A stretch of 10,070 bases of DNA from Candidatus Dormiibacterota bacterium. GTDB lineage: Bacteria > Chloroflexota > Dormibacteria > Aeolococcales > Bog-877. The position numbers and the translations under genes are program-made. The notes below the pieces were generated by a model. It was not told the origin of the DNA. It did no database searches and saw only the letters and a program-made list of their open reading frames with translations. Below, in pieces: positions 1,494 through 9,475 of this stretch (the first letter of the stretch is position 1; every line of letters begins with the position of its first letter). The stretch lies in NCBI GenBank assembly GCA_003132265.1, contig PKXE01000072.1, forward strand, positions 8,648 through 18,717, given 5' to 3'.

Positions 1494-2165
1494 ATGCCCT
1501 CCGCAGGCGGTGGTCCCGGGGCAGCTGAGGTCACCCTCTCCAGCAAGAGCGAGTTGGTGGTCAGGGCCGTCAGGGAGATGATCGTGGCCGGACAGCTGCT
1601 GCCGGGAACCCCTCTCCGGCAGCAGGAATTAGCCCGGCTCTTCGGAGTCAGCGCGACCCCAGTGCGAGAGGCGATCCGGCGCCTAGAGGCTGAGGGGCTG
1701 GTTCGTTCCCTGGTCCATCGGGGCGCCACGGTGGCCCGACCTGATGCGATGCACCTGGAGGAGAGCCTCCGCATCCTGGCGGTGTTGGAGGCGCTGGCCG
1801 GCCGACTGGCAGTGGAGCGGATGTCCGACGCTGACCTGCGGGAGGTCGAAGACCTACACGAGCAGGTGAGACTCTGCCGGGACGACGAGCGGCGACGGAA
1901 GGAGCTCAACCGGATCTTCCACTTCCGGGTCTATGAGTGCGCCGGCTCCCCGATGCTGCTCTCGATCATGCGCCTGCTCTGGTCCTCGTTTCCGGGCGGA
2001 CCTCATGTCGGACGCCCCCTCGACGAGTCAGTTCGTGGCCACGCCCGCCTGCTGGATGCGCTGCGCCAGCGCGACCCGGTCGAGGTCACCCGGGCCATCG
2101 ACGAGCACGTGAGCGGCATGATCGACTACGTCCAGGCAGGACCGCCCGCGGTAGGCGGGATCTAA
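1494..2165 (+). CDS. GntR-family transcriptional regulator with FCD ligand-binding domain
   Basis: This is a 223-residue DNA-binding regulator of the FadR/VanR-like (FCD) subfamily. The N-terminal winged helix spans about residues 17-83 and carries the family hallmarks LRQQELARLFGVS and TPVREAIRRLEAEGLV, followed by the wing HRGATVA. The all-helical C-terminal FCD domain spans about 86-212. Candidate metal/ligand residues are Asn139, His143, His182 and His205, by comparison with the family. Such regulators usually bind carboxylates or amino-acid-like effectors. The start is uncertain. ATG 1494 gives the usual family length. GTG 1392, ten bases after livF and preceded by AAAGG, would add 34 low-complexity residues. 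The gene follows the transporter on the same strand and may be cotranscribed; its likely targets are the transporter or the dehydrogenase downstream. Confidence 0.88.
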   Translation: MPSAGGGPGAAEVTLSSKSELVVRAVREMIVAGQLLPGTPLRQQELARLFGVSATPVREAIRRLEAEGLVRSLVHRGATVARPDAMHLEESLRILAVLEALAGRLAVERMSDADLREVEDLHEQVRLCRDDERRRKELNRIFHFRVYECAGSPMLLSIMRLLWSSFPGGPHVGRPLDESVRGHARLLDALRQRDPVEVTRAIDEHVSGMIDYVQAGPPAVGGI

Positions 2166-2181
2166 CCCCGGCCCCAGAAGG

Positions 2182-2215
2182 CCCTTGCTCGACCGCCGCC
2201 GCGCGCGAGAAAGGG
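2182..2215 (+). terminator. Stem-loop after the GntR gene, probable terminator
   Basis: CCCTTGCTCG (2182-2191) pairs with CGAGAAAGGG (2206-2215) with a single mismatch (G2187 opposite A2210), leaving a 14-base GC-rich loop. The stem begins 17 bases after the GntR stop codon. No T-run follows, as is often the case for hairpin terminators in high-GC Gram-positive bacteria. Position and pairing are seen directly; termination is inferred. Confidence 0.5.
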
Positions 2216-2332
2216 TGCTCGCGACAGCGGAGAGCGGAGACTCGGGAGCGTCGGCAACTTCACGCTCGGGGAAGCGTCAGAGTTCGTCTAGAGCGCCGGG
2301 CGCGATCAACCGACGGCGGCCCAGCACTGCGA

Positions 2333-2357
2333 CGAGCAGAAACGAGCACATTGCTCG
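2333..2357. promoter_or_regulatory. Palindrome and half-site cluster upstream of the dehydrogenase, candidate operator
   Basis: CGAGCA (2343-2348), the spacer CAT, and TGCTCG (2352-2357) form a perfect 15-bp dyad 37 bases before the dehydrogenase start. A further direct half-site CGAGCA lies at 2333-2338, spaced ten bases (one helical turn) from the next copy. Two more TGCTCG copies sit at 2186-2191 and 2216-2221 in the same gap. Operators of FCD regulators are usually short dyads, so the adjacent GntR protein is a plausible binder. CGAGCA is not rare in the coding regions of this window, which weakens the case for the isolated copies. The rest of the 229-base gap (2166-2394) shows no credible gene and no clear promoter. 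Confidence 0.4.
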
Positions 2358-2394
2358 CCACCCCCTCGGCAACGTCGGCCCACAATTAGAAACC

Positions 2395-3390
2395 GTGGAG
2401 GTGATGGAGCTTCGGGCGCCTGCTCCGGCGGTGAGCGGACCGCTGCGGCCCGTCTCCCGACCCGACCCGACCCCGGGGCCGGGCGAGGTCCGGCTTCGCG
2501 TAGAGGCGTGCGCTGTGTGTCGGACCGATCTGCAAATCAGCTCCGGCGACCTCCCTGCCAGAGTGCTGCCGATCGTACCCGGGCACCAGATCGTGGGCAG
2601 GGTGGTTGAGGTGGGTGAGGGGGTCGGCCCGGAGTTTCTGGGTCGGAGGCTTGGGGTGGGATGGCTCGCCTCCGCCTGTGGTGACTGCGAGTTCTGCCGG
2701 GGTGGCCGGGAGAACCTCTGCCGCAAGGCGACCTTCACCGGATGGGATAGGGATGGCGGGTTCGCCAGCCAGGTGGTGGTGCGGGCAGACTTCACTCAGC
2801 GGTTGGCGGACGAGGGTGATCCGGTCCAGCTGGCACCACTCTTGTGCGGTGGGGTGATCGGCTACCGGGCCTTTCGCCGCACCGAAGTTGGCCGGGGGGA
2901 CCGGCTGGGGCTGTTCGGGTTCGGGGCCTCGGCCTGGCTGGTGGCCCAGCTGGCGATTGCGGAGGGCTGCCAGGTCTTCGTCGTCACCCGCGACGAGTCG
3001 GCCCGCCAGCGGGCGAAGGAGCAAGGCGCAACCTGGGTTGGCGCTCCCGGGGAGTCGCTACCGGTCCCGCTCCAGGGCGCTATTACCTTCGCTCCCGTCG
3101 GGGCGGTGGTGGTCGACGCGCTCCGGGCCTTGGACCGGGGCGGGACCTGTGTCGTGAACGCCATCCATTTGGACCGCATCCCCGAGTTCCCCTTCGAGCA
3201 CCTTTACTGGGAGCGGCGGCTCATCAGCGTCGCCAACTTCACCCGCCAGGATGCCGCTGAGTTCCTCCAGCTGGCCCAGCAGATCCCGATCCGCACGCTG
3301 GTCGAGCAGTTCCCCTTGGCTCAGGCCAACCAGGCCCTGCTCCAGCTCCAGGAAGACGGCATCCCCGGAGCGGCGGTGCTGGTTCCCTAG
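2395..3390 (+). CDS. Zinc-dependent alcohol dehydrogenase family protein
   Basis: This is a 331-residue cytoplasmic medium-chain dehydrogenase/reductase that should interconvert an alcohol and an aldehyde or ketone using NAD(P). The GroES-like domain carries the catalytic-zinc cysteine in VCRTD (Cys42), PGHQIVG (His64, with Gln where many members have Glu) and Cys151 in LLCGG. Four structural-zinc cysteines are at 95, 98, 101 and 109 (CGDCEFC and NLC). The Rossmann motif is GFGASA at 175-180. The C-terminal segment LYWERRLISVANFTR is typical of the AdhA-like group. I chose GTG 2395 because its N-terminus lines up with that group's usual MKAM-type start. ATG 2404 is the alternative, but then GGAGG lies only two bases upstream. 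The gene is separated from the regulator by 229 bases and a stem-loop, so it probably has its own promoter. The substrate is unknown. Confidence 0.9.
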   Translation: MEVMELRAPAPAVSGPLRPVSRPDPTPGPGEVRLRVEACAVCRTDLQISSGDLPARVLPIVPGHQIVGRVVEVGEGVGPEFLGRRLGVGWLASACGDCEFCRGGRENLCRKATFTGWDRDGGFASQVVVRADFTQRLADEGDPVQLAPLLCGGVIGYRAFRRTEVGRGDRLGLFGFGASAWLVAQLAIAEGCQVFVVTRDESARQRAKEQGATWVGAPGESLPVPLQGAITFAPVGAVVVDALRALDRGGTCVVNAIHLDRIPEFPFEHLYWERRLISVANFTRQDAAEFLQLAQQIPIRTLVEQFPLAQANQALLQLQEDGIPGAAVLVP

Positions 3391-3391
3391 A

Positions 3392-4675
3392 TCAGGGAGG
3401 CTGGGAGGAGAACTCCTTCTGGAGCCGTGTGACGGCCTCCCTGGCCGCCACGGTCAGCTCCAGCGCCAGCCGTCGGTCTAGATCCAGGGAGGGGGTCGTC
3501 TCGAGCGCTCGCAGCCGTTCCTCGAGTAGGTTGAGCTGGTCCGCAATCTCGCCCGGGGTCGCCAGAGCCCGGAGCCGGGCCGCCGCCACCGAAGCGGGGT
3601 CACCCTGACGCTGGGCGTGCTGGTAATGCCCGAAGGCCAGTCGATCCCGATCAGCGGCGAGCAAGAGACGCACTGCCGCCTGGCCGGACTCAGAGATCTC
3701 CTCGGCCGGCGCGTGGAGCCGGCAGAGACCATCGAGGCCCGCCGCGAGCGCCCCGGTGATCGCAGCCGCCGCGGCGCCGCCGGCCGCATCTCGGGGGGAG
3801 AGCATCCGGGCGACCGTTTCGAGCAGCGACCAGGAGGCCACCGGGCCGGGTTGGAGCCCTCCCAGCTCCGTCAGTGAGAGCAGAGCGCAGACCGCGGTGA
3901 TCCGGCCGATCCCCCCGGGCACCGGTGTCACCCGGGTGGCCGCCGCGCCGGCCTCCGGAGAGACGTCTCCGCGTAGCTGTCCGTCGACCATCGAAGTTCC
4001 CACGTCGAGGACCGTCGTTCCGGAGCGGATCGCCGCCTTGGGCATCACGCCGGCGATTCCGATGGCGGAGATCAGCACGTCGTAAGGAGGCAGGGGATGA
4101 ACATTGGCGATGTCGCTCTGGACCACGGAAACCTGGGCCCCGGTCGCCAGCAGTCGCTGCGCGATCGGCCGGCCGCCGGTCGACCCGTGGCCGATGATCA
4201 GGATCCGAGATCGCGAAGCATCGATTCCCAGGTACAACAGGGTCGCGAGGCAGGCCTCGGCGACAGGTGTCCCGCGGCGCCGGCCCTCAGCTGCCGCCGA
4301 GAGTGCCGCCGGGGTCACCGCTTCGACGTCCTTGCTGGCGGGGAGGTGGGCGGCCACCACCCCCGGGGGCAGCGAATCGACCGGTTGAACCACCACCACT
4401 CCATGGACGGTGGGGTTGACCACCAGGGCGTCGAGGGCGGTCAGGGTTGTCTCAGCGTTGTCCCGGGGCACCGTCCGGTGCACGACTTCAACCCCCCCGG
4501 CGACTGCCTCGCGCTCCAGCGAGCGGGCGAACGAACCGCCCGGCACGTTGCCCTCTTCGACCACGACCCCCAGCCGATAGGGGAGCTTCCTCGCTCGGCA
4601 GCGATCTCTGAGCTGGGCCCGGAGTTCCTCTAGCAACGGCGCGAGGTCGAGCAGATTCGAGGCTGCGGAGTCCAT
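3392..4675 (-). CDS. FolD-like methylene-tetrahydrofolate dehydrogenase fused to a cyclodeaminase/cyclohydrolase (FchA/FTCD_C-like) domain
   Basis: This is a 427-residue predicted cytoplasmic one-carbon enzyme. Residues 1 to about 275 follow the FolD layout: a substrate Gln in VVVQPVD (Gln97), KDVEA (115-119) where FolD has KDVDG, a nucleotide loop IIGHGSTGGRP (160-170), VLDVGTSMVDG and PVPGGIGRIT (251-260). Residues about 280-427 resemble the FTCD C-terminal/FchA family: SPRDAAGGAAAAAITGAL at 293-310, then ADRDRLAFGHYQHA and an Ala-rich helical tail. At about 148 residues this is shorter than the usual 180-200. The FolD Tyr-x-x-x-Lys pair is absent (GGSFARSLERE), and there is no lysine at all between residues 30 and 115. 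I infer that the FolD part may oxidise methylene-THF while the second domain supplies or replaces the cyclohydrolase step. The ATG has GGGGAG just upstream. FolD ancestry is firm, the second domain is likely, and the activities are unproven. Confidence 0.85.
   Translation of the reverse strand: MDSAASNLLDLAPLLEELRAQLRDRCRARKLPYRLGVVVEEGNVPGGSFARSLEREAVAGGVEVVHRTVPRDNAETTLTALDALVVNPTVHGVVVVQPVDSLPPGVVAAHLPASKDVEAVTPAALSAAAEGRRRGTPVAEACLATLLYLGIDASRSRILIIGHGSTGGRPIAQRLLATGAQVSVVQSDIANVHPLPPYDVLISAIGIAGVMPKAAIRSGTTVLDVGTSMVDGQLRGDVSPEAGAAATRVTPVPGGIGRITAVCALLSLTELGGLQPGPVASWSLLETVARMLSPRDAAGGAAAAAITGALAAGLDGLCRLHAPAEEISESGQAAVRLLLAADRDRLAFGHYQHAQRQGDPASVAAARLRALATPGEIADQLNLLEERLRALETTPSLDLDRRLALELTVAAREAVTRLQKEFSSQPP
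3393..3443. terminator. Inverted repeat at the convergent gene ends, candidate bidirectional terminator
   Basis: CAGGGAGGC (3393-3401) and GCCTCCCTG (3435-3443) are perfect 9-bp complements. The 33-base interval holds a second small dyad, AGGAG-AA-CTCCT (3406-3417). The structure begins three bases after the dehydrogenase stop codon and lies inside the last codons of the opposing folate gene. With only one base between the two stop codons, transcripts from both sides must end here. No T-run is present, so termination is inferred from position and pairing only. Confidence 0.45.
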
Positions 4676-4796: not shown

Positions 4797-4986
4797 GGCC
4801 CAGGGCCTCGACCTCTCGACGCACCCACCGCTCTGCCAGTCAGCTTCCAAGCACTTTCTCAGCCGCAGCGCGGTCTCTCCACCCAAAACCTCTGTCACAC
4901 TAGCCCCGTCCGCCGGGGTCGAGGTGGGGCCGGCCACGCCCGGTCTGCTCGCACTTCCAGCAGAGCCCCGCCGCCGGTGGATCTCA

Positions 4987-4991
4987 GGAGG
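4987..4991 (+). promoter_or_regulatory. Ribosome binding site that sets the TTG start of the MBL/rhodanese gene
   Basis: GGAGG lies seven bases before TTG 4999, an ideal spacing. It also falls inside the reading frame that would begin at ATG 4924, which has no comparable site. The site therefore argues for the TTG start. Confidence 0.7.
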
Positions 4992-4998
4992 CCGGAGC

Positions 4999-6363
4999 TT
5001 GGTCGAGGTCGTGACCCTGGAGACGCCAGAGCTGGGGGACCGCACCTATCTGGTCCACGACGGGAAGCAGGCCATCGTCGTCGATCCCCAGCGCGACACC
5101 GACCGGGTACTGGCCCTGGCCGACTCGGCCCGGGTCCAGATCACCTGTGTTGCCGAGACCCACATCCACAACGACTACGTCTCGGGGGGGTGGGCCTTGT
5201 CTCAGGCGCTGGGAGCCCGCTATCTGGTCGCCGCCGCCGACGACGTCTCTTTCCAGCGCCAACCGGTGAGTGAGGGCGATCGGGTTGAGGTGGGCTCCAT
5301 GACCCTGCAGGCGCTGGCCACCCCCGGGCACACCGCCAACCACCTCTCGTTCCTGCTCTGGGCCAAGGACGGTCCGCGAGCCCTCTTCAGTGGAGGCTCG
5401 CTGCTCTATGGAGCGGTGGGGCGCACCGACCTGGTCTCGCCGCGCCTCACCGAAGAGCTGGCCCGCGCCCAGCACCGCTCGGCGCTGCGGTTGGGGGCCC
5501 TGCCCGAGAGCCTCGCGCTCTACCCCACCCACGGATTCGGGAGCTTCTGCGCCAGTGCGCCCACCTCCGCCACCGAGCCCAGCCACACCATCGGGACCCA
5601 GCGGGCCACCAACCCCGCCATGATCGGGGACGAGGACGGTTTTGTGAAGGGTCTGCTGGCGGGGTACTCCCTCTATCCGCGCTACTACGCTCACATGAGC
5701 CCGCTCAATCTCGAGGGCGCGGCGGCGCCCGACCTCTCCCTGCCCCCCCCAATCGATATCGCCGAGGTCGGTCGGCGCATCCAGGGGGGCGAGTGGGTCA
5801 TCGACCTCCGGGGCCGGACCGAGTTCGGCCCCTCTCACGTGGCTGGCACGGTCAACTTCCCGACGGGCGAGCAGCTGGCGACCTACGTGGGTTGGGTCGT
5901 CCCCTGGGCCGCTCCCCTGACCATGGTGGCCAGCTCCCGGGCGGACGTCGGCCGGGCCCGCCGGGCTCTGGCCAGGATCGGGATCGACTGGCTCGCTGGC
6001 TGGTCGAATGTCCCGCTGGCCGACCTTCAGGCGGCACTCGGGAGTTCCTCGTACCTGGTGACCAATTTCCAGGGCCTGGCCGAGGCCGTCCGTTCCCACG
6101 ACGTTCAGATCCTCGACGCCCGTCGTCCGGACGAGTGGCGCGAGCGCCACATCAAGAACGCGATCAACATCCATCTCCCCGACCTGCCCCCCCGGATCAG
6201 CGAGCTTCCCAACCGGCCCATCTGGGTGCACTGCTCCGCCGGGTACCGGGCCAGCGTCGCCGCCAGCCTTTTGGACCGGGCGGGCCGCGAAGTGGTGTTG
6301 GTCGATGACGACATCGAACGGCTGGAGGAGGTCGGTCTAGAACTGGTCAGCGGCTCCGAGTAG
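4999..6363 (+). CDS. Metallo-beta-lactamase fold protein with two rhodanese domains
   Basis: This is a 454-residue cytoplasmic protein of the persulfide-dioxygenase-like MBL/rhodanese group, probably acting on glutathione-like or other low-molecular-weight persulfides. The MBL domain (about 1-240) has THIHNDY at 54-60, TPGH (His111) and YPTHGFGSFC (His178). Where ETHE1-type enzymes have the metal-binding Asp in FTGD, this protein has FSGGSLLYG, with Gly133 at that place. Rhodanese 1 (about 245-345) is probably structural, because its loop reads VASSRAD with Ser312 at the cysteine position. Rhodanese 2 (about 350-450) has the active loop HCSAGYRAS with Cys412. The TTG start is favoured by the strong GGAGG site and gives the usual family N-terminus. 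The gene heads a plus-strand sulfur-related stretch and ends in a hairpin. Family is firm; substrate and metal are inferred. Confidence 0.9.
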   Translation: MVEVVTLETPELGDRTYLVHDGKQAIVVDPQRDTDRVLALADSARVQITCVAETHIHNDYVSGGWALSQALGARYLVAAADDVSFQRQPVSEGDRVEVGSMTLQALATPGHTANHLSFLLWAKDGPRALFSGGSLLYGAVGRTDLVSPRLTEELARAQHRSALRLGALPESLALYPTHGFGSFCASAPTSATEPSHTIGTQRATNPAMIGDEDGFVKGLLAGYSLYPRYYAHMSPLNLEGAAAPDLSLPPPIDIAEVGRRIQGGEWVIDLRGRTEFGPSHVAGTVNFPTGEQLATYVGWVVPWAAPLTMVASSRADVGRARRALARIGIDWLAGWSNVPLADLQAALGSSSYLVTNFQGLAEAVRSHDVQILDARRPDEWRERHIKNAINIHLPDLPPRISELPNRPIWVHCSAGYRASVAASLLDRAGREVVLVDDDIERLEEVGLELVSGSE

Positions 6364-6775: not shown

Positions 6776-6781
6776 TATTCT
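6776..6781 (+). promoter_or_regulatory. Possible -10 element for the MoeB-like gene
   Basis: TATTCT fits TANNNT and lies 53 bases before ATG 6835, predicting a leader of about 45 bases. The hexamer sits within an imperfect dyad, CTCGAG-TATT-CTTGAG (6770-6785). No good -35 box was seen, so readthrough from the HIT gene is an equal possibility. Confidence 0.3.
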
Positions 6782-6834
6782 TGAGTAGCGGGTCGGATTT
6801 TGGCCCAGGCTTGGGCGGTGGGAGTGCACTTCAG

Positions 6835-8040
6835 ATGGCTTTGAGTTCGCGGGAATTGGTCGAGCAGGCGCGCCGGGAGGTGCCCGAGGTGGCGCCGCAG
6901 GAGCTACGGGCCCGGCTGGCTCACGACGGCGCTTGCCAAGTCCTCGACGTCAGAGAGCCGGAGGAGGTTGCCCAGGGCGTACTTCCTGAGGCCGTGCTCA
7001 TCCCGAGGGGCTTCCTGGAGCTCCAGGTGGAGTCGGCGATCCCCGATCGCTCGACCCCGATCACCGTCTACTGCGCTTCCGGGGTGCGTTCTCTCCTGGC
7101 GGCGAGGACCCTGCGTGGAATGGGGTACTCCGACGTGGCCTCCCTCCAGGGGGGCTTCAACGCCTGGAAGGACCAGGGACTGCCCTTCACGGTGCCGCAC
7201 TCCTTCACCCAGGAGCAGCGCGAGCGCTACAGCCGCCATTTCCTGCTCAGCGAGGTCGGCGAGGCGGGCCAGGCCAAGCTGCTCGGCGCCAAGGTGCTGC
7301 TGCTGGGGGCAGGTGGCCTGGGGGCCCCGGTCGCCTACTACCTGGCTGCCGCCGGGGTGGGGACCATTGGGCTGGTGGACTTCGACCGAGTGGAGCTGAG
7401 CAACCTGCAGCGGCAGATCGTCCACACTGTGGACCGACTGGGGATGCTCAAGACCGAATCGACGGCGATCGCGCTCAAAGCGCTCAACCCCGAGGTGAAG
7501 GTCGTGGAGCACAACGTCCACTTGGACAGCTCCAACGCCGCCGAGATCTTCTCCCGGTACGACGTGATCATGAACGGGAGCGACAACTTCCCGACCCGTT
7601 ACCTCGCCAGCGATGTGGCGGTCTTCCTGGGTAAGCCGCTGGTGGACGGCGGGATCTTCCGCTTCGAGGGCCAGGCCACGACCATGATCCCGTTCGAGTC
7701 GGCCTGCTACCGCTGCCGCTACCCGGCGCCCCCGCCCCCGGAGGAGGCGCCCAGCTGCTCCGAGGCCGGCGTCCTGGGGGTGCTGCCCGGGCTAGTCGGC
7801 ATGATCCAGGCGATCGAGGTGATGAAGCTGCTCCTGGGCATCGGGAAGACGCTGAGCGGCCGGCTGCTGCACGTCGACGCGCTGACGATGGAGTTCACCG
7901 AGTTCCGCCTTCGGCGCGACCCCGAGTGCCCGGTCTGCGGCGAGCATCCCTCGATCACCGAGCCCATCGACTACGAGGGCTTCTGCCGCAACCCCAACCT
8001 GGTCGTGTCGGCGCCGGCCCCCGCCCCGGTCCTGGCCTGA
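6835..8040 (+). CDS. MoeB/ThiF-type sulfur-carrier adenylyltransferase with N-terminal rhodanese domain
   Basis: This is a 401-residue cytoplasmic E1-like enzyme that should adenylate the C-terminal Gly-Gly of a small sulfur carrier (MoaD, ThiS or CysO type) and pass sulfur to it. Residues about 18-120 are a rhodanese domain with the active loop YCASGVRS (Cys80). Residues about 128-375 are the MoeB/ThiF domain: RYSRHFLL, the ATP loop GAGGLG (158-163), LVDFDRVELSNLQRQ, and GVLGVLPG. Zinc cysteines are CYRC (291, 294) and CPVC (365, 368). Cys308 in PSCSEAG is at the conserved family cysteine. Mycobacterial MoeZ has the rhodanese at the C-terminus, so the order here is reversed. I chose ATG 6835, with GGGAG ten bases upstream. 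A TTG at 6781 would add 18 low-complexity residues. No carrier gene is in view, so molybdopterin, thiamine and cysteine pathways cannot be separated. Confidence 0.9.
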   Translation: MALSSRELVEQARREVPEVAPQELRARLAHDGACQVLDVREPEEVAQGVLPEAVLIPRGFLELQVESAIPDRSTPITVYCASGVRSLLAARTLRGMGYSDVASLQGGFNAWKDQGLPFTVPHSFTQEQRERYSRHFLLSEVGEAGQAKLLGAKVLLLGAGGLGAPVAYYLAAAGVGTIGLVDFDRVELSNLQRQIVHTVDRLGMLKTESTAIALKALNPEVKVVEHNVHLDSSNAAEIFSRYDVIMNGSDNFPTRYLASDVAVFLGKPLVDGGIFRFEGQATTMIPFESACYRCRYPAPPPPEEAPSCSEAGVLGVLPGLVGMIQAIEVMKLLLGIGKTLSGRLLHVDALTMEFTEFRLRRDPECPVCGEHPSITEPIDYEGFCRNPNLVVSAPAPAPVLA

Positions 8041-8392: not shown

Positions 8393-9475
8393 GTGGAGGA
8401 GTTGGTCCCGTTCAGCCCTTACCGGTCCGATCGGCAATACGCCCGGCTGGAGACCTATCGCCGTCTGGGCCTGCCGGATGCGACCTGGGCCGCTGAGCAG
8501 TTCAACCTCCGGGTCCACGTCTCGACCGCCGGCCCCGAAGGTGCTGAGCGCCGAGCCGCCGAGGTGTGGGAGGCAGTCGAGCGGCTCCCACTCCAGGTCA
8601 AGGACATCGTTCGGGGCGTCATCGACGAGGTGCGCCTTGACCACGAGGACAGCTTTCCGGCGGAGACTCTGGGGACCTGGCGGGACGCGACCATGCGGAT
8701 CAACCGGGACTGGTCACTCATCCCCGCTTTGCGGAACCCCGGCTGGCACCGGGATCTCGGCTATGACCTCTTGCGGGCCACTTTGGTCCACGAGGCTGGT
8801 CACGCCCTGGTCGAGGATCCAAGGGGCGGGATCCGGCTGCGCGACAGCGTGGCCCTGATCGCCGCCTCGGGGTGGCTGCCCCATCCCCTAGTGGACCCCA
8901 TCCCCTACGGCCCGGTCGGCCGGCAGGTCTCCACCCTCAGCGCTTACTACCTGGAGCGGCTGCGCCAACTCGACCCGCGCTGGGATGGAGACCTCTCACT
9001 GGGCAGCCCCGGGTTGCCGTCGGCGCAGCAGCTGGATCGCGACGTGATGCAGGAGGTCAGCACCTTCAATCGGCTACGGACCAAGGATCGCGGATCGCTG
9101 GCTCTGCAGGGGTCGGACCAGCTGCTCCGCCGCCTCCGCAACGATGACCCTCCCCACTTGACCCACGAACTGGCCGCTCACGGTCTCAGCCTGGAGGACG
9201 TCGACGCCGCAGTGCGGCGGCGGCGGGGCATCTCCCTCTACGCTGAAGAGTCGATCTCGGAAACCCCGGCCGAGATCTTTCGTTGCATCCACGCTCCCTT
9301 CACGCGAGCTGAACGCAGCCGTCCGGCGCTGATCGAGGGGGAACGCGTGCTCGTCGAGCCCTGGCGCACCGCCGACCGGGCGATCGGAGCTCGCCGCCCG
9401 GCGCTCGCGCCCGAGCGGCCCTGGGAGGCACTGCAGCTGATCCGCCGAGGCGTGGGCCGGGAACTGGGGAGGTGA
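8393..9475 (+). CDS. Putative zinc metallopeptidase with HEAGH motif, otherwise unknown
   Basis: This 360-residue protein has no signal peptide or membrane segment. The one clear motif is LVHEAGHALVEDP, giving the zincin HExxH at residues 133-137 (His133, Glu134, His137). About 150 residues later YAEESISETPAEIF (283-296) resembles the gluzincin-type segment Tyr-Ala...Glu-x-x-Ala-Glu-x-Phe seen in several small zinc-peptidase families. Glu290 or Glu294 could be the third zinc ligand. The N-terminal 100 residues and the linker are charged and match nothing I recognise. The GTG start has AGGGG a few bases upstream; nothing better lies nearby. The next gene starts five bases after the stop, so the pair is an operon. 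Peptidase activity is inferred from the motif; the substrate is unknown. Confidence 0.75.
   Translation: MEELVPFSPYRSDRQYARLETYRRLGLPDATWAAEQFNLRVHVSTAGPEGAERRAAEVWEAVERLPLQVKDIVRGVIDEVRLDHEDSFPAETLGTWRDATMRINRDWSLIPALRNPGWHRDLGYDLLRATLVHEAGHALVEDPRGGIRLRDSVALIAASGWLPHPLVDPIPYGPVGRQVSTLSAYYLERLRQLDPRWDGDLSLGSPGLPSAQQLDRDVMQEVSTFNRLRTKDRGSLALQGSDQLLRRLRNDDPPHLTHELAAHGLSLEDVDAAVRRRRGISLYAEESISETPAEIFRCIHAPFTRAERSRPALIEGERVLVEPWRTADRAIGARRPALAPERPWEALQLIRRGVGRELGR
9468..9472 (+). promoter_or_regulatory. Strong ribosome binding site for the 95-residue gene
   Basis: The run GGGGAGGTGA (9467-9476) closely matches the anti-Shine-Dalgarno complement and spans the stop codon of the preceding gene. 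Its GGAGG core is eight bases before ATG 9481. It is among the strongest sites in the window and supports both the small gene and coupling to the metallopeptidase gene. Confidence 0.75.

Follow-up and report, generated by a model that had tools for sequence, protein, structure and literature searches.

How can a FolD protein serve as a dehydrogenase-cyclohydrolase when the residues tied to its cyclohydrolase activity are missing? The question is raised by a gene in a stretch of 10,070 nucleotides, referred to here as the window, from a Candidatus Dormiibacterota bacterium (GenBank assembly GCA_003132265.1, contig PKXE01000072.1, positions 8,648 to 18,717). The source genome comprises 2.28 Mb on 233 contigs and is 83% complete. 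The gene runs from 4675 to 3392 on the minus strand and its open reading frame of 427 codons was confirmed. It encodes a FolD-like half joined to a second domain, which a first-pass annotation of the window had likened to FchA/FTCD_C. We favor, with a probability of roughly 55%, the view that this fusion protein is a dehydrogenase-cyclohydrolase in which the cyclohydrolase step has moved from the FolD site to the fused domain. The argument refers to the following features (window coordinates).

3392..4675, minus strand: whole gene, FolD-like domain plus FTCD_C-like domain, 427 amino acids
3851..4675, minus strand: FolD-like half, residues 1-275
4517..4531, minus strand: F49-A-R-S-L53, replacing the Tyr-x-x-x-Lys motif according to the alignments
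4385..4390, minus strand: V96-Q97, with V96 aligned to the Gln position of human Q100
4328..4333, minus strand: K115-D116, with the kept folate-binding Asp (human D125); D116 in 53/53 sequences, Asp in 121/121 other FolDs
4166..4192, minus strand: G162-P170, GHGSTGGRP, dinucleotide-binding motif; most compared FolDs have GRS
3896..3919, minus strand: P253-T260, PGGIGRIT, with the invariant R258; most compared FolDs have Pro there
3395..3838, minus strand: FTCD_C-like domain, residues 280-427, five helices
3770..3790, minus strand: D296-A302, aligned with the PGGGS motif of FchA/FTCD_C, here A-G-G-A-A
3644..3646, minus strand: D344, kept invariant Asp of FchA/FTCD_C
3476..3478, minus strand: D400, kept Asp of the FchA Ser-Asp motif, the Ser of which is lost

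The Tyr, Lys and Gln that form the cyclohydrolase site of standard FolD have been lost from this protein and are replaced by Phe49, Leu53 and Val96. The FolD fold is present over residues 4-276, and one of the two FolD profiles recognized the N-terminal half: PF02882, the NAD(P)-binding domain, scored 79 bits (cut-off 27), but PF00763, the catalytic domain, reached 24.9 bits and missed its cut-off of 32.8; many homologues have PF00763 in precomputed Pfam. The first-pass annotation was right in stating that no Lys occurs between residues 30 and 115 (the nearest are K30 and K115) and that the Tyr-x-x-x-Lys pair is gone. In phmmer alignments with solved FolDs the motif falls on F49-A-R-S-L53, and no alignment places a Lys in the active site. 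Conservation was assessed in 53 full-length sequences (the window's own plus 52 homologues), and neither F49 nor L53 varies in any of them. A third loss was added at the Gln position, which is Val in 45, Ile in 4 and Met in 4 of the sequences, while the adjacent Q97 is invariant. R258 is also found in all 53 sequences; the other aligned FolDs have Pro or a few other residues at this position, but never Arg. The cofactor motif reads GHG in place of GRS, with H163 in 52 of the 53 sequences, which may bear on the preference for NAD or NADP.

The second domain was assigned mainly by its predicted structure. Pfam and NCBIfam searches of the whole protein gave no match in this region. A PF04961 scan of 17 isolated C-terminal domains produced matches for 14 of them at E ≤10, the best at 7e-4. 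A profile built from the same 17 domains found TM1560 in the PDB (E 0.0026), although a phmmer search with a single C-terminal sequence did not recover it. When the domain was modeled alone, the top four rows from Foldseek were TM1560 (twice), FTCD and the FchA of M. extorquens. The model thus clearly predicts an FTCD_C/FchA fold for the last ~150 residues, and the profile matches support a distant kinship with this group rather than a classification as FchA; the resemblance named in the first-pass annotation holds for the modeled fold, but the sequence match is weak. A similarity to ribonuclease PH (best phmmer E 0.081, also behind TM1560 in the profile search) involved an Ala/Gly-rich stretch and was judged to be due to chance.

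The suggestion that the second domain could be degenerate is not favored. In 12 pairs the ratio of nonsynonymous to synonymous substitution rates (dN/dS) was 0.04-0.32 for the C-terminal domain and 0.11-0.23 for the FolD half, with dS near 1 in many pairs. Because the ratio is about as low as that of the FolD half, decay of this domain is unlikely. Across the 53 sequences 42 of its 147 positions are invariant, many of them charged, and it has invariant polar residues of its own, e.g. D315, C318, R319, H321, D342, R345 and R401.

The fusion occurs in 16 of the 18 genomes of the window's Dormibacteria family (f1); among the matches listed for the other 183 genomes searched, none spans the C-terminal domain. 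PF02882 was found above its cut-off once in each of the 16 genomes and not in the remaining two, G004 and G017; eight family genomes have weaker, partial PF02882 rows that fall short of it. In a protein database, rows P0002-P0061 were members of the fusion group or pieces of them, and rows P0062-P0077 were ordinary FolDs of 241-313 amino acids. Two further searches, one of them read as the best 120 of 289 matches, added just pieces, ordinary FolDs and a single FTCD_C protein; the last came from the search with the C-terminal profile, which gave it at E 5.2 beside nine members of the fusion group or parts of them. Among the matches listed, none has PF02882 and PF04961 together. These searches rely on shared short words, so a fusion elsewhere could have escaped them. 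The source names of close homologues are mostly Candidatus Dormibacteraeota, Dormibacteria or Dormiibacterota; one homologue (P0032) is labeled Candidatus Nanopelagicaceae, which is another phylum if the label is correct.

In a tree of 107 rows the nine fusions were monophyletic, and the branch leading to them was very long (2.58). An approximately unbiased test on 102 rows, from which the two FolDs of genome G160 (one identical row under two labels in the larger tree) and three long-branch rows had been removed, did not reject a constraint that groups the fusions with FolDs from f2-f4, the remaining three families in the class (p 0.46). The FolD half may descend from a Lys-bearing ancestor of the class or from a FolD that already lacked the Lys.

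Next we consider the folate metabolism of the family. Its genomes are metagenome-assembled and 64-93% complete, so a lone absence is weak evidence and a repeated pattern weighs more. PurH and a formyltransferase domain are present in 18 of 18 genomes, and the formate-tetrahydrofolate (THF) ligase FTHFS was detected in two (G004 and G005). All of these genomes must therefore have some source of 10-formyl-THF; in 15 of the 16 with the fusion its users are present and the formate route is undetected. G004 has FTHFS without the fusion, and G017 (84% complete) has neither. A second, intact FolD, which the first-pass annotation had advised looking for, was not found above the PF02882 cut-off in any of the 16 genomes. 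Mch was found in 0 of 18 genomes. Another FTCD_C domain occurs in two (G005 and G008), where both frames read as full formiminotransferase-cyclodeaminases; the other 14 genomes with the fusion have none according to a PF04961 search, which also misses the fused domain itself. MTHFS was found in one genome (G004). Its absence was rejected as a family trait because this 5-formyl-THF cyclo-ligase (PF01812) is rare in relatives too (7 of 121 genomes, versus 11 of 14 control genomes).

The relatives, from a wider phylum that we take to be Chloroflexota, show what accompanies the loss of the FolD Lys. We compared 121 FolDs from 115 genomes, all outside the window's family. FolD matches were listed for 146 such genomes, of which 113 were examined; G156 and G193 were reached via FTCD_C loci only, and for G120, G126, G131 and G141 such loci were used in addition; 6 of the 49 neighbor cases below thus came through fchA-anchored loci. 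Any same-strand FTCD_C frame in the stretch of 2-4 kb that was read counted as a neighbor. The Lys is missing in 64 FolDs, and 49 of these have an FTCD_C gene upstream on the same strand, at a distance of ≤100 bases in 47 cases (227 in G188 and 1008 in G159). None of the 57 FolDs with the Lys adjoins such a gene, with the reservation that four (G028, G059, G095, G099) have <650 bases of upstream sequence (166 in G059), where a neighbor could be missed. Hence, the Lys is missing in 49/49 examined FolDs that adjoin fchA. Counted by family, 22 lack the Lys and have the neighbor, 3 lack both, 8 have the Lys and 1 is mixed; the Fisher p value of 1e-20 ignores relatedness and should be read beside these counts. 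Of the 15 FolDs that lack both Lys and neighbor, 13 are in genomes with FTCD_C elsewhere (in G167 in a long frame, perhaps a full FTCD); in G160 the Lys-less FolD stands in tandem with another that has the Lys, and no FTCD_C was shown anywhere in G138.

These data indicate that an fchA neighborhood predicts loss of the FolD Lys and that the loss and FchA go together. Tyr, Lys, Gln and Asp are all retained in the 49 FolDs examined from f2-f4 (21, 3 and 25, respectively). An FTCD_C gene is also present in many of the f3 and f4 genomes, and therefore its presence alone does not predict the loss. The pattern beside fchA and the lack of another FolD in the fusion genomes agree with the earlier suggestion that Lys loss and fusion complement each other.

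Together, these observations lead us to the following scheme. The gene would encode a 5,10-methylene-THF dehydrogenase, the only one found in the family's genomes. Its FolD half, judged by the kept fold, folate-binding Asp and dinucleotide-binding domain, would convert methylene-THF to methenyl-THF, without the Tyr/Lys/Gln set that in ordinary FolD is linked to the hydrolysis of methenyl-THF. The fused, far-diverged FTCD_C/FchA-type domain would convert methenyl-THF to 10-formyl-THF, which would supply PurH and the formyltransferases. The fusion would thus be a one-polypeptide counterpart of the neighboring genes for FchA and a Lys-less FolD elsewhere in the phylum. In a narrower version, which we put forward only tentatively, the fused domain would act as methenyl-THF cyclohydrolase through a rebuilt site, composed of the two FchA Asp and its own invariant set, and methenyl-THF passes directly from the FolD half; any such channeling is a prediction.

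Several points weigh against this scheme. Catalytic residues of FchA were judged by conservation and not from a published assignment, using the ten polar columns with ≥90% conservation among 18 FTCD_C/FchA sequences, mostly stand-alone and a few in longer frames. Only two of these ten residues are kept in the fused domain, both of them Asp (D344 and D400); the PGGGS motif has become A-G-G-A-A, and Thr, Ser, Asn and Arg positions are altered. PF04961 scored the window's own domain at 9 bits, below its cut-off of 24.5. The Foldseek E values for the isolated domain were 0.005-0.093, none <0.001, and a talin domain tied with the fourth row. The absences in the genomes come from incomplete assemblies, and a second, equally diverged FTCD_C domain could escape the PF04961 search. 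Methenyl-THF also opens non-enzymatically. Finally, fchA lies upstream of folD in 49/49 pairs and the fusion has the reverse order, which means that it was not formed by loss of a stop codon in an fchA-folD arrangement. The first-pass proposal that an unrelated domain replaces the second activity is favored by the genomes, which have no Mch and mostly neither FTHFS nor another FTCD_C, but given the lost residues it remains an inference.

The strongest rival, which we consider unlikely, is a non-enzymatic C-terminal domain that holds an oligomer, binds folate or regulates the dehydrogenase, with methenyl-THF opening spontaneously or via an unrecognized protein. The loss of eight of ten polar residues and the missed Pfam cut-off fit this explanation; purifying selection equal to that on the FolD half, the many invariant, often charged positions and the lack of another recognized cyclohydrolase in most fusion genomes do not. 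It is improbable that the FolD half performs both steps with a rebuilt site, e.g. with R258 in place of the Lys, and that the C-terminal domain is an accessory: R258 is indeed unique to the fusions among the aligned FolDs, but Tyr, Lys and Gln are all lost, and Lys loss accompanies FchA in the phylum. Equally improbable is action on another one-carbon substrate, such as a modified folate or, as the first-pass annotation had offered, formimino-THF with the C-terminal domain as deaminase; formimino-THF cyclodeaminase belongs to FTCD_C and the FolD site is heavily remodeled, but no other FolD was found in these genomes, which have PurH and formyltransferases, the folate-binding Asp is retained, and positive evidence for formimino-THF is lacking, formiminotransferase having been seen, by reading, in just two genomes, within long FTCD frames, with stand-alone forms not searched for.

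The fusion resembles several known systems in part. It shares with FolD/MTHFD the fold, dinucleotide-binding domain and folate-binding Asp, and differs in its cyclohydrolase site (Phe, Leu and Val for Tyr, Lys and Gln) and additional domain. Like the pairs of Lys-less FolD and stand-alone FchA, it lacks the Lys and has an FTCD_C-type partner at hand; unlike these two genes with fchA first, it is one polypeptide of reversed order with a far-diverged partner, and it keeps neither Tyr nor Gln, which Lys-less FolDs with or without FchA beside them mostly keep (60/64 and 39/64, respectively). The C-terminal domain resembles M. extorquens FchA (7vg4), TM1560 (1o5h) and the cyclodeaminase domain of FTCD (1tt9) in its predicted fold and the two Asp, but is shorter and lacks PGGGS and the other eight polar residues. 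MTHFD1 also joins FolD to another folate enzyme domain; its partner, however, is formyl-THF synthetase and its FolD half keeps the cyclohydrolase residues. Yeast MTD1 (1edz), an NAD-dependent dehydrogenase, is eukaryotic, unlike the fusion, and to our knowledge has no FTCD_C-type domain.

In the literature, a separate FchA enzyme is described (PMC7219735, citing Aluri 2016), acetogens and syntrophs have one-carbon gene clusters with fchA and folD (PMC3584212, PMC10213532), and MTHFD1 is presented as a FolD-FTHFS fusion of opisthokonts (PMC11064299). One survey of FolD genes throughout the tree of life names the FolD-FTHFS fusion; its main text nowhere contains FchA, cyclodeaminase or Chloroflex. 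No report of a FolD-FTCD_C fusion was found in the open-licence literature, a scope outside which most subscription papers fall.

FolD is usually annotated as bifunctional, and members of the fusion family are named bifunctional FolD, hypothetical or by domain in spite of the lost second site. The fusion points to the likely partner, and Lys loss beside fchA, the pattern of the phylum, provides a simple test by which many annotations could be corrected. Activity of the fused domain with so few FchA residues, if real, would reveal the parts of the active site that are truly needed; a rebuilt site would be a further chemical solution for the cyclohydrolase step, beside FolD and FchA.

Some relatives deserve separate mention. 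Three f12 FolDs (L118, L139 and L140 from G177, G138 and G117) have a triple change like that of the fusion (Phe, Val, Leu), with no fused domain noted and no neighboring FTCD_C; G117 and G177 have FTCD_C elsewhere. The tandem FolD genes of G160 (L145:1111-2013 and 2038-2928, plus strand), only the second named of which need not be assumed to lack the residue, differ in the active-site Lys, absent from one and present in the other, and possibly reflect a division of labor. Five f3 genomes, G054 (L152), G056, G060 (L158), G066 and G070 (L155), have FTCD_C and FTHFS; no FolD in them matched the fusion query, and PF02882 was not searched there. Loci L160-L171 of f4 encode diverged FTCD_C proteins with P-A-S-G or P-A-G-G in the PGGGS region; the FolDs examined in these genomes keep the Lys and have no adjoining FTCD_C.

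The identified neighbors of the fusion gene, in the window and at ten family loci, include none with a link to folate. A zinc alcohol dehydrogenase gene (end at 3390) meets it tail to tail, stop to stop, and a metallo-beta-lactamase/rhodanese gene (4924-6363, plus strand) lies upstream in the opposite direction. An HIT protein and a MoeB-rhodanese gene are near the fusion at 10/10 loci and in the window, a Mur ligase at 10/10 loci but not in the window, and an alcohol dehydrogenase at 8/10. These common neighbors speak for vertical inheritance of the fusion within the family. The metallo-beta-lactamase/rhodanese gene has a close counterpart at 1/10 loci; together with a rhodanese-ThiF/MoeB gene (6781-8040, plus strand) it gives the window two nearby rhodanese fusions. 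A 360-residue frame at 8393-9475 (plus strand), without a Pfam match above cut-off, has counterparts in 7/10 family loci.
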